Assembly (NCBI RefSeq): GCF_017833035.1
Contig: NZ_JAFIBM010000001.1
Coordinates: forward strand, 744,001 to 808,000
Direction: 5' to 3'
From: Frigoribacterium sp. PvP032
GTDB lineage: Bacteria; Actinomycetota; Actinomycetes; Actinomycetales; Microbacteriaceae
DNA: 64,000 bases
The position numbers and the translations under genes were made by a program. The first letter of the stretch is position 1. Every line of letters begins with the position of its first letter. The notes beneath the pieces were generated by a model, which was not told the DNA's origin, searched no databases, and saw only the letters and a list, made by a program, of their open reading frames with translations. Below are positions 23,322-25,432 of the stretch, in pieces.

Positions 23322-24224
23322 TCAGGAGCGGCGGTCGACCAGGGCGTCGGCCAGCTGCCGTGTGACCTCGGCGTCGATCGCGACCGGCTCGCCGTCCAGC
23401 GACGAGAGCGGAGCCACGAGCCGGCCGCTCGACACGAGCCAGAGCGCGTCGGCACGGCGCACCTCGTCCATCGTCAGCAGCACCTCGGCGACCTCGTGCC
23501 CGAGCGAGCGGAGGATCTCGAAGGCGGCGGCCTGGGTCGTCCCCTCGAGGATCCCCTGGTCGGTGCGGGGCGTCACGTACACGCCGTCGAGGCGGGCGAT
23601 CAGCGACGCCGACGGCCCCTCGAGCGCGTAGCCGTCGCTGCTCACGAAGAGCACGTCGTCGGCACCCCGGCGCGCTGCCTCGCGCAGCACGCTCTTGTTG
23701 ACGGCGTACGAGAGCGTCTTGGCGCCCTGCAGCAGCCACGGCGACGTCTGCGCGACGTCGTGGCGGTAGCCGCGGTCGAGCGACACGACACGGATGCCGT
23801 GCACGCGCTCGTCGTCGTGGTCGGGCATCAGCTCGGTCCGCACCCACGCGGTCGGCGATCCGTCGCCTCCTTCGACGCCTCGCGTCACGACCAGCTTCTG
23901 CAGGAGGAGCGGCGCAGGCTCGTGCAGCCTCGCCGACTCGAGGCAGGCGGCCCGGATCACGTCGAGGTCGAGCTCGGGCAGGTCGAGCAGCGCCGCCGAG
24001 CGTGCGAGCCGGGCGAGGTGCGGCTCGAGGGCCTGGATCGAGCCGTGCGAGACGCCGAGCCCCTCGAAGATCCCGTCGCCGCGCGTGACGCCGAGGTCGG
24101 TGACGTGGATCGTGTGCTCGGACGGGTCGACGACCCGCCAGCCCGTCTCGCCGGGAGCGAGCGGCGGCCCGCCCGCAGCGGCTCGGTCGATCATCACGAG
24201 CACGGGAGGAGCGGAGGCGGTCAT
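23322..24224 (-). CDS. Aminodeoxychorismate lyase-like, class IV aminotransferase fold
   Basis: A 301-residue PLP enzyme of fold type IV. The PLP Lys is K169 in QGAKTLSYAVNKS. VTDLGVTRGDGIFEGL near residue 45, LEGPSASL and the C-terminal GILEGTTQAAAFEI phosphate-binding loop are typical. The best match is PabC, which makes 4-aminobenzoate for folate; a branched-chain or D-amino acid aminotransferase is the alternative. The ATG at 24224 gives the usual length. The adjacent upstream region carries the GACGAWCTAG repeats. Confidence 0.82.
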   Translation of the reverse strand: MTASAPPVLVMIDRAAAGGPPLAPGETGWRVVDPSEHTIHVTDLGVTRGDGIFEGLGVSHGSIQALEPHLARLARSAALLDLPELDLDVIRAACLESARLHEPAPLLLQKLVVTRGVEGGDGSPTAWVRTELMPDHDDERVHGIRVVSLDRGYRHDVAQTSPWLLQGAKTLSYAVNKSVLREAARRGADDVLFVSSDGYALEGPSASLIARLDGVYVTPRTDQGILEGTTQAAAFEILRSLGHEVAEVLLTMDEVRRADALWLVSSGRLVAPLSSLDGEPVAIDAEVTRQLADALVDRRS

Positions 24225-24277
24225 GGGGGCGACGCTAGCAGCGGGCCGCGGGCGGAGGGCAGGCCGCTCGACGGTCA

Positions 24278-24303
24278 CTAGACGAACTAGTCAGACGATC
24301 TAG
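24278..24303. promoter_or_regulatory. Tandem GACGAWCTAG sites, possible operator
   Basis: GACGAACTAG (24281-24290) and GACGATCTAG (24294-24303) form a direct repeat with a 13-nt period, preceded by another CTAG at 24278. CTAG is usually rare in GC-rich genomes, so three copies within 26 nt stand out. The site lies 57 nt upstream of the PabC-like gene on the minus strand and upstream of the candidate RNA on the plus strand. Confidence 0.45.
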
Positions 24304-24314
24304 CGGAAATGGAT

Positions 24315-24375
24315 GTTGACCAGGCTTTTCTCGCGGAGTCAACCCCTGTCGCGGTGTCGCGCGCGGCCGTAGGCT
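24315..24375 (+). promoter_or_regulatory. Possible promoter of the structured RNA
   Basis: An inverted repeat GTTGAC (24315-24320) / GTCAAC (24338-24343) precedes TGTCGC (24348-24353) and TAGGCT (24370-24375) at 16-nt spacing, a reasonable actinobacterial -35/-10 pair. Transcription would start near 24382. Confidence 0.35.
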
Positions 24376-24381
24376 GGCGGA

Positions 24382-24740
24382 GCCCGCCTCGCGCAGGCAC
24401 GTGGCTCTCCGCACCGTCGGAGCTTCACGCAGGGACGATCTCTGCGGAGGGTCACGAGGGGCCGCCTCGGTCGTGCAGGGCCATGCGCCCCTCCAGGGAG
24501 GGGCCGCGCTCCCCGAGCGAGGAGCGCGACCCGGATGCCGTTCCGCGAGCGTGAGCTTCACGGGCAGGGAACGCTCGCGGGGAGCGACATCCTGTGGGAC
24601 CGGTGAGGTCCCGACCCGACAAGGCTACGCGTTCCGTCGAGTCCCCCGGAAGGGGGCCAGCGGACGCGCACGGCATGCACAGGCTGCGCGGAGCAGCCCG
24701 GCCGCGGCCCGTACCCCGGCGAGGTCCCCCGTCCTGCCCA
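24382..24740 (+). ncRNA. Candidate structured RNA with twin identical-loop hairpins
   Basis: This stretch has no convincing coding frame but folds into consecutive hairpins. Hairpin 1 (24401-24455) has a 12-bp stem and the loop GAGCTTCACGCAGGGA. Hairpin 2 (24543-24580) has a perfect 10-bp stem and the loop GAGCTTCACGGGCAGGGA. Others are GCCCCTCC-AG-GGAGGGGC, GGGACC-GGTGA-GGTCCC and CCCCC-GGAA-GGGGG inside a CGCG(T)TCCG/CGGACGCG stem. CCTCGC (24387) can pair with GCGAGG (24719). It is either an independent small RNA or a long leader of the HAD gene. It lacks the conserved motifs of RNase P RNA, tmRNA and SRP RNA. Confidence 0.55.
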
Positions 24741-24763: not shown

Positions 24764-25432
24764 ATGAGCACCGAGCAGCCCCGCACGACCCTGACCGCCC
24801 GGGCGGTCGTCTTCGACATGGACGGGACGCTCGTCGACTCGACCGCCCTGGTCGAGCGCATCTGGACCGAGTGGTGCGGCCCGCTCGGCCTGCACCCGGG
24901 CGAGGTGCTCGCCTTCGCGCACGGTCGGCAGACCGCGGACACGGTCAGGCGGTTCCTGCCCGAGCTGGACGAGGAGGCGGTGCTGCGGCACGTCGACGCG
25001 CTGCTGTCGGTCGAGGGCGAGGCCCCCGACGGCGTGGTGGAGATCCCCGGCGCCGCCGCGTTCGTCGCCGCGCTGCCCGGGCAGCTCGTCGCGCTGGTGA
25101 CGAGCGCCCCGGGGGACATCGCGCGGAGCCGCACCGCCGTCGCGGGGGTCGGGCTGCCCGCGGTCGTGCTCGCCTCCGAGGACGTGCCGGCCGGCAAGCC
25201 CGCTCCCGACGGGTACCTGCGGGCGGCCGAGCTGCTGGGCGTCGAGCCGGGCGACGTCGTCGTCTTCGAGGACGCGGAGGCGGGGCTGCAGGCCGCACGC
25301 GCCTCTGGGGCCCAGGTCGTGGTCGTGGGCGACCACGGCGGGCCGGCCGCCGAGGGGCTGACGCGCATCACGGACTACCGCGGCGCCGTGGTCGAGCTCG
25401 GCGACGACGGGCTGCTCACGATCACGCTCTGA
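24764..25432 (+). CDS. HAD superfamily IA sugar-phosphate phosphatase-like
   Basis: A 222-residue HAD hydrolase. The nucleophile motif is FDMDGTLVDS (D18, D20), motif II is VTSAP, motif III lies at AGKPAPDGYL and motif IV is VVFEDAEAGLQAA. The alpha-helical cap after residue 25 places it in subfamily IA with the DL-glycerol-3-phosphatase/2-deoxyglucose-6-phosphatase group, so it probably removes phosphate from a small sugar phosphate. The ATG at 24764 follows the candidate RNA directly and no good Shine-Dalgarno is present. Confidence 0.88.
   Translation: MSTEQPRTTLTARAVVFDMDGTLVDSTALVERIWTEWCGPLGLHPGEVLAFAHGRQTADTVRRFLPELDEEAVLRHVDALLSVEGEAPDGVVEIPGAAAFVAALPGQLVALVTSAPGDIARSRTAVAGVGLPAVVLASEDVPAGKPAPDGYLRAAELLGVEPGDVVVFEDAEAGLQAARASGAQVVVVGDHGGPAAEGLTRITDYRGAVVELGDDGLLTITL

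Follow-up and report, generated by a model that had tools for sequence, protein, structure and literature searches.

By mechanism, the described systems that appear closest to the two RNAs reported here are RosA of Bacillus subtilis and the CJnc180/CJnc190 pair of Campylobacter jejuni, with relatedness shown for neither. RosA, according to its authors the first confirmed RNA sponge of a Gram-positive bacterium, was shown in cells to act as a sponge of the C-rich small RNAs RoxS and FsrA, and is under CcpA control (PMC8216469). Sponges have a section of their own in a review (PMC8383071), and the examples that we found in the literature come from Gram-negative bacteria and the Firmicutes. Among the matches listed in our literature search, which had preprints and most subscription papers outside its scope, there was no pair of small RNA and sponge from the Actinobacteria and no small RNA from Frigoribacterium or Frondihabitans; the main text of the paper on the mycobacterial 6C/B11 RNA does not contain the word "sponge" (PMC10470900). 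Here we describe a Frigoribacterium locus for which the best reading is a convergent pair of stand-alone small RNA genes: X1, which would belong to a base-pairing small RNA family (X), and Y1, a candidate loop-mimicking antagonist. We assign this reading a probability of roughly 0.6. That two small RNA families are present is very likely, and a sponge relation of Y to X is the best explanation suggested by the comparisons given below.

The locus lies in the window (the whole 64-kb stretch of DNA that was analyzed) between the genes for a class IV aminotransferase and a HAD hydrolase, in a genome of 3.33 Mb (G000); the coordinates of its features are collected in table 1. A sequence-only reading had described a structured RNA here, with two hairpins presenting almost the same loop on unrelated stems. 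Both hairpins and both loops were found where it had placed them, and the near-identity of the loops is reflected in the 10-mer GAGCTTCACG, which is present twice with a spacing of 133 nt. This recurrence is not due to chance, since both loops recur at the orthologous loci of genomes of the same genus; positions 24549-24574 have 100% identity in seven of these in the DNA search. The structure was borne out by folding of X1, which on the minus strand gave a z score of -6.11 and on the plus strand of -3.29, with 0 of 200 shuffles as good in either case. The proposed selection on loops carried by differing stems was supported as well: the stems vary among copies, and the loop is constant.

Two smaller elements of that reading stood only in part. 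The stem carrying a GGAA loop does exist (CCCCCGGAAGGGGG, 24643-24656), but it sits on the upstream side of the X1 promoter-like box and belongs to neither RNA; the four genomes of this clade retain the inverted repeat in slightly altered form. The terminal pairing of 24387-24392 with 24719-24724 is a perfect 6-mer match, but is absent from the minimum-energy fold, and conservation beyond the nearest relatives does not extend to 24719-24724. An Rfam scan, suggested as a check, returned no relevant family for the region: The whole window at the gathering score gave two tRNAs and nothing else, the region at E up to 10 gave three irrelevant subthreshold matches, and six related loci had no match (6C included). 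Many open reading frames overlap across this GC-rich DNA, the HAD frame open to 24401 among them, and small frames at 24309-24551 (plus strand) and 24235-24561 (minus strand) had no Pfam match. A coding region was rejected on these grounds and because the loop's context, stems and lengths are different in the other copies; of the options raised beforehand, a noncoding trans-acting small RNA is the one that the comparison favors.

Table 1. Features of the X1/Y1 locus and its flanks (positions in the window)
Feature	Position	Strand	Basis or remark
Class IV aminotransferase (aminodeoxychorismate lyase by NCBIfam)	23322-24224	-	
CTAG-N5-CTAG box (24278-24290) and third CTAG (24300-24303)	24278-24303	.	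Upstream of Y1; putative MarR-type operator
-10-like TAGGCT of Y1	24370-24375	+	Expected start near 24382
Short 5' hairpin of Y1 (GCCTCGCGCAGGC)	24386-24398	+	Sequence; fold pairs in slightly different register
Hairpin 1, body of Y1	24400-24456	+	G.U versus A.C counts; RNAalifold
Y1 loop GAGCUUCACGCAGGGA	24420-24435	+	Complement of X loop minus 2 central nt
Terminator-like hairpin of X1	24501-24532	-	Tail from 24500 downwards
Hairpin 2 of X1	24543-24580	-	Perfect 10-bp arms; R1 and R2 model matches
X1 loop UCCCUGCCCGUGAAGCUC, putative seed	24553-24570	-	Loop motif conserved in genus
Hairpin 3, 5' hairpin of X1	24596-24612	-	Fold
-10-like TAGCCT of X1	24622-24627	-	Expected start near 24615
HAD hydrolase gene	24764-25429	+	Likely start, picked by analyst; frame open back to 24401

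X1 is predicted to be a minus-strand small RNA gene of ~120 nt, transcribed from ~24615 to ~24493. A -10-like box precedes it, it contains three hairpins, and its end resembles a terminator. This layout recurs throughout the family. In 45 X copies collected by an exact 15-mer, a TANNNT box lies 50-62 nt before CCCTGCCC in 43 (L267 and L271 are without it), and in 44 a strong GC-rich hairpin begins 30-41 nt downstream of the first base of CCCTGCCC; since the sequences are related, these counts do not represent independent events. No -35 boxes were identified, and CTCCCTGGAGGG, the tail of X1 here, is U-poor; both count against the two-gene reading. To describe the core we used R1, a covariance model of 14 sequences on the plus strand of the window, trained on X1 copies that already carried the CCCUGCCCGUGAAGC loop. 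Among the Frigoribacterium matches of R1 with E no higher than 4.5e-4, CCCTGCCCGTGAAGC is exact in 33/34, all but a G007 copy with one base altered. One base of the X loop is changed in L306, a third X-type copy in its genome (G007, contig 2, 1149064). For X2, an alignment of 11 sequences has 96.4% of cells paired and eight pairs with two-sided changes, and 0/500 shuffles were as high for either value; against this, another covariation measure, which admits further pair types, was reached by 87/500 shuffles. Upstream of the -10-like box, the X3 copies (L105, L113-L117) share a conserved block and most X1 copies of one clade (L031-L037) carry TGTCGCGACA, each a possible regulator site.

With what look like its own promoter, a conserved exposed seed, an intrinsic terminator and a stand-alone gene, X has the features expected of a trans-acting small RNA. 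A scan for X targets with one 11-mer in six genomes gave 66 matches, against 22 with the reversed pattern. No convincing conserved leader site emerged from the 30 of the 66 matches that were fetched and compared: Where matches resembled each other, they were X copies, one repeat internal to G000, or two pairs with similarity over 660-700 nt.

Y1 is predicted to be a plus-strand small RNA gene of ~75-90 nt, from ~24382 to ~24457. The Y-type set comprises 20 sequences, including a doubtful candidate in G003 (L262) without a -10 box and without the usual neighbors; in 19 of the 20, a TANNNT box precedes GCUUCAC (in one, GCUUUCAC) by 52-63 nt. Hairpin 1 shows two-sided changes in 6 of 11 RNAalifold pairs. 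Y1 folded on the plus strand gave a z score of -2.27 (6/200 shuffles as good) and on the minus strand of -1.60 (16/200); in the model, the Y1 loop is open only in part (mean 0.4). Two MAFFT alignments (A3 and A6) mis-register the stems across clades and were excluded from model building. A second Y, designated Y2, was found in G000, G001, and G011. In G000 (contig 1, ~2746777, L109) it has its own -10-like box, and its neighbors include an ABC-F-type ATPase gene and msrA; the open reading frames flanking the G001 copy resemble those in G000.

Boxes, terminators, and the balance of G.U against A.C cells lead us to read X as minus and Y as plus. The X2 stem has 33 G.U versus 4 A.C cells on the X strand, and the Y stem 27 versus 2 on the plus strand (nine stem pairs, 19 sequences). 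X1 alone carries a weak strand signal (A.C 10 vs. G.U 7 on the plus strand, ten sequences). Over the 45 X terminator-like hairpins, G.U cells number 42 versus 17 A.C, with 25 hairpins leaning to the X strand and 5 to the opposite one, and the tails have 6.9 pyrimidines in 9 on the X side versus 4.2 on the opposite side. These hairpins were located with a strand-neutral finder, which still misplaced the one in L268; it was used instead of a cruder finder that over-extended the stems and scored 28 in favor of the X strand and 16 against it, T being slightly more frequent on the opposite side. Constrained folding came out for the proposed strand in 15/20 Y and 31/45 X segments, and for the opposite strand in 5/20 and 13/45. 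With X on the minus and Y on the plus strand, the loop that seems to occur twice becomes a loop and a loop's complement, in two opposite transcripts.

The distribution of the two RNAs also indicates separate genes. At the DNA level, 21 of the 60 relatives searched gave matches, namely 15 of the 16 Frigoribacterium genomes (not G007) and six others with short matches. R1 recovered the core in each of the 16 Frigoribacterium genomes, and every one of them had a second copy too. The second X of G000, X2, is located at 77764-77899 of contig 1 (L048, L118), lies near a short-chain dehydrogenase gene and closely resembles Frondihabitans copies. One clade of Frigoribacterium has X3 copies, Frondihabitans has copies of the X1, X2, and X4 types, and the highest number of X copies found in a genome is four (G236). 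R2, a model built from 11 X2 sequences on the X strand, gave matches at E up to 0.001 in 16 of 398 Microbacteriaceae genomes and only 2 of 85 genera, under strict filters by which weak matches are lost. In 299 family genomes at E up to 0.01, R1 also picked up single weak matches (best 9.0e-5) in 12 genomes, each from a different other genus; these were not repeated by R2 at E up to 0.001, and the one inspected (L067) has a terminator-like hairpin and no loop. It should be noted that the loop pattern by itself is no evidence, as at least 92 of 150 family genomes match it. In a contig pattern scan, 12 among the matches listed (at least 80 records) were Frigoribacterium or Frondihabitans, and a -10 box was present in none of three records inspected as decoys from the 68 others listed.

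As no Y model was built, the spread of Y was judged through patterns and by eye only; on this basis no convincing copy was recognized in two of the 16 Frigoribacterium genomes (G003 and G006), nor any in three of the six X-bearing Frondihabitans genomes (G124, G236, G318), and a Y beside X was found in G019, G186, and G280. X1 and Y1 lie side by side in 11/16 Frigoribacterium genomes, between the aminotransferase and HAD genes in four (G000, G001, G011, G012) and beside a MarR-family gene in seven (G005, G008, G009, G010, G013, G014, G015), where an MFS transporter gene is on the other side in 6/6 tested. In G002, G004, and G007, X1 is beside MarR and Y1 at the aminotransferase locus, 36-57 kb apart; in G003 and G006, X1 is beside MarR. 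X2, X3, and X4 are all present without a recognized Y.

The relation between the two families is seen in their loops. The Y1 loop is the complement of the X loop without its two central bases, and in each of the 20 Y-type sequences the loop matches that of X along both flanks and fails at or near the middle. The failure takes several forms: Two central bases are missing in the G000 and G005 clades (ten sequences), AC stands opposite CC in the Y of G002, G004, and G007, a single base is missing in the three Y2 and two Frondihabitans Y copies, the third Frondihabitans Y has one base missing and an extra U in the first half, and the doubtful G003 sequence has a single central mismatch. The loop-loop duplex of Y1 and X1 is predicted at -28.9 kcal/mol, and those of seven X-Y pairs at -27.8 to -35.3 kcal/mol, compared with -38.6 for the exact complement. 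Exact complements of the X loop outside X genes were seen at three places (G013, G015, G124), all in stretches with long open frames; G015 has one further exact match. Y has the complementarity to a conserved small RNA region that characterizes sponges, provided that the loop is the functional region of X, as seems probable. The strongest hint is the combination of pairing flanks with an unpaired center, which suggests that the pairing itself is selected and a perfect duplex avoided; alternatively, the center of the Y loop may simply drift freely. A cis-encoded antisense pair was considered and is not supported, given that the Y1 hairpin is predicted to end at 24456 and the terminator-like hairpin of X1 at 24501, with complementarity restricted to the loops and interrupted.

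Conservation, structure, strand, boxes, terminators, complementarity, and separate genes are supported by comparative sequence, and a model can be drawn from them. X would be a set of multicopy base-pairing small RNAs (X1-X4) that present one C-rich seed loop, CCCUGCCCGUGAAGC, on changing stems. The Y hairpin loop, GAGCUUCACG-CAGGGA, would pair with the X loop on either side of a central bulge or mismatch and occupy the seed, freeing the mRNA targets of X; Y would thereby restrain X, and the central interruption may serve to avoid cleavage. Because the X loops are identical, one Y could titrate all X siblings. Interrupted target mimics are known for plant microRNAs. A more far-reaching version, in which sibling fixed-loop small RNAs would all be titrated by centrally interrupted mimics (Y1 and Y2), sequestered without cleavage and with Y under a MarR-type switch, is tentative, and the odds are against it in full.

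CTAG boxes are common to the promoter regions of Y and MarR (24278-24303; L280-L295). The exact CTAG-N5-CTAG occurs once in the 64-kb window, in which CTAG alone occurs 22 times. Eleven of the 16 Frigoribacterium genomes have the exact box within 300 nt upstream of a MarR-family gene, and in seven of these 11 the intergenic region with the box is common to the MarR gene and Y1; several Y copies and G000's own MarR gene have inexact variants only. A MarR-type protein might bind these boxes; at a guess, Y would then be turned on and X off in response to its inducer.

Other explanations were weighed against the sponge reading. The same two RNAs could have their roles swapped, Y acting as regulator through a G-rich loop and the X copies as antagonists of it. 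Both loops are conserved, and X is multicopy (up to the four found in G236), as a buffer might be; X is present, however, in 16/16 Frigoribacterium genomes, whereas Y was not recognized in 2/16 of these nor in 3/6 Frondihabitans, and the X loop is near-invariant whereas the Y loop varies at its center, so that we regard the swap as unlikely. The loops could also bind a protein, with Y as a CsrB-like decoy of CsrA, which recognizes A-N-GGA in a hairpin loop: G000 encodes CsrA (contig 1, 3277722-3277877, L319; 85 bits at a cut-off of 27), AGGGA lies within the Y1 loop, and ...CAGGGA fits the motif. The corresponding bases, however, are AGGGG in G002, G004, G007, G008, G010, the doubtful G003 sequence and L065, and AGGGC in Y2 and L062, and the conserved portion is that complementary to the X loop, which makes a decoy a distinctly improbable reading.

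Even less probable is that X is a mobile or repeat-like hairpin family without regulatory function, its complementarity to Y being left over from duplication. Several X copies per genome in different places, and one loop carried as a direct repeat on the plus strand, would agree with this; it is opposed by the -10-like box in 43/45 copies and the terminator-like hairpin in 44/45, at a near-fixed distance and with differing stems, and by the likeness of X2 across two genera. We give least credence to a proposal of the sequence-only reading, a single structured plus-strand RNA acting as a riboswitch-like leader of the HAD gene or as a tandem aptamer. Both hairpins can form on the plus strand too, and the HAD frame, with a likely start at 24764, is open to 24401. 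Folded whole as a plus-strand RNA, the 359 nt are unremarkable (z -1.52, 7/100 shuffles as good); strand-specific wobble and terminator polarity oppose a single RNA of 360 nt, and an Rfam match is absent. A tandem aptamer is not supported, as the hairpins probably belong to opposite transcripts, are located apart in three genomes, and include X copies without Y. The neighbors differ in most genomes: The HAD gene adjoins X1 in 4/15 Frigoribacterium X1 loci (G015 left out), and at the seven X+Y loci that adjoin a MarR-family gene no HAD gene was found, on which grounds a HAD leader of the riboswitch type was rejected.

Read as an antagonist and its small RNA, Y and X make up a compact, testable pair, and the fixed central interruption, if it is a rule, would bear on how a bacterial sponge can hold its partner without destroying it. 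The locus also carries a caution, in that the apparent repetition of a loop on one strand can arise from a loop in one transcript and its complement in another that runs in the opposite direction. Within the Actinobacteria, X resembles 6C/B11 of mycobacteria, a small RNA with C-rich loops thought to pair with G-rich mRNA sites; B11, as described, has two C-rich loops, whereas X has one fixed loop of mixed sequence and no Rfam match (PMC10470900). Y would resemble RosA as a stand-alone RNA whose G-rich regions face the C-rich target-binding regions of more than one small RNA (PMC8216469). A further likeness would be control by a transcription factor, CcpA for RosA and, as a guess, a MarR-type protein for Y. 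RosA, which is known from work in cells, is ~229 nt long and has three G-rich regions, whereas Y, as predicted from sequence, has ~75-90 nt with a single, centrally interrupted loop and is often convergent with X1; the two are likened by mechanism and not by sequence comparison. With CJnc190/CJnc180, the locus would share the arrangement of a small RNA and an RNA antagonist on the opposite strand (PMC8687705). CJnc180 and CJnc190 are described as mutually antisense with perfect complementarity, whereas X1 and Y1 have predicted bodies free of overlap and would pair through their loops only, with an interruption; and in contrast to the single locus of CJnc180/CJnc190, X1 and Y1 sit apart in three genomes (PMC8687705).
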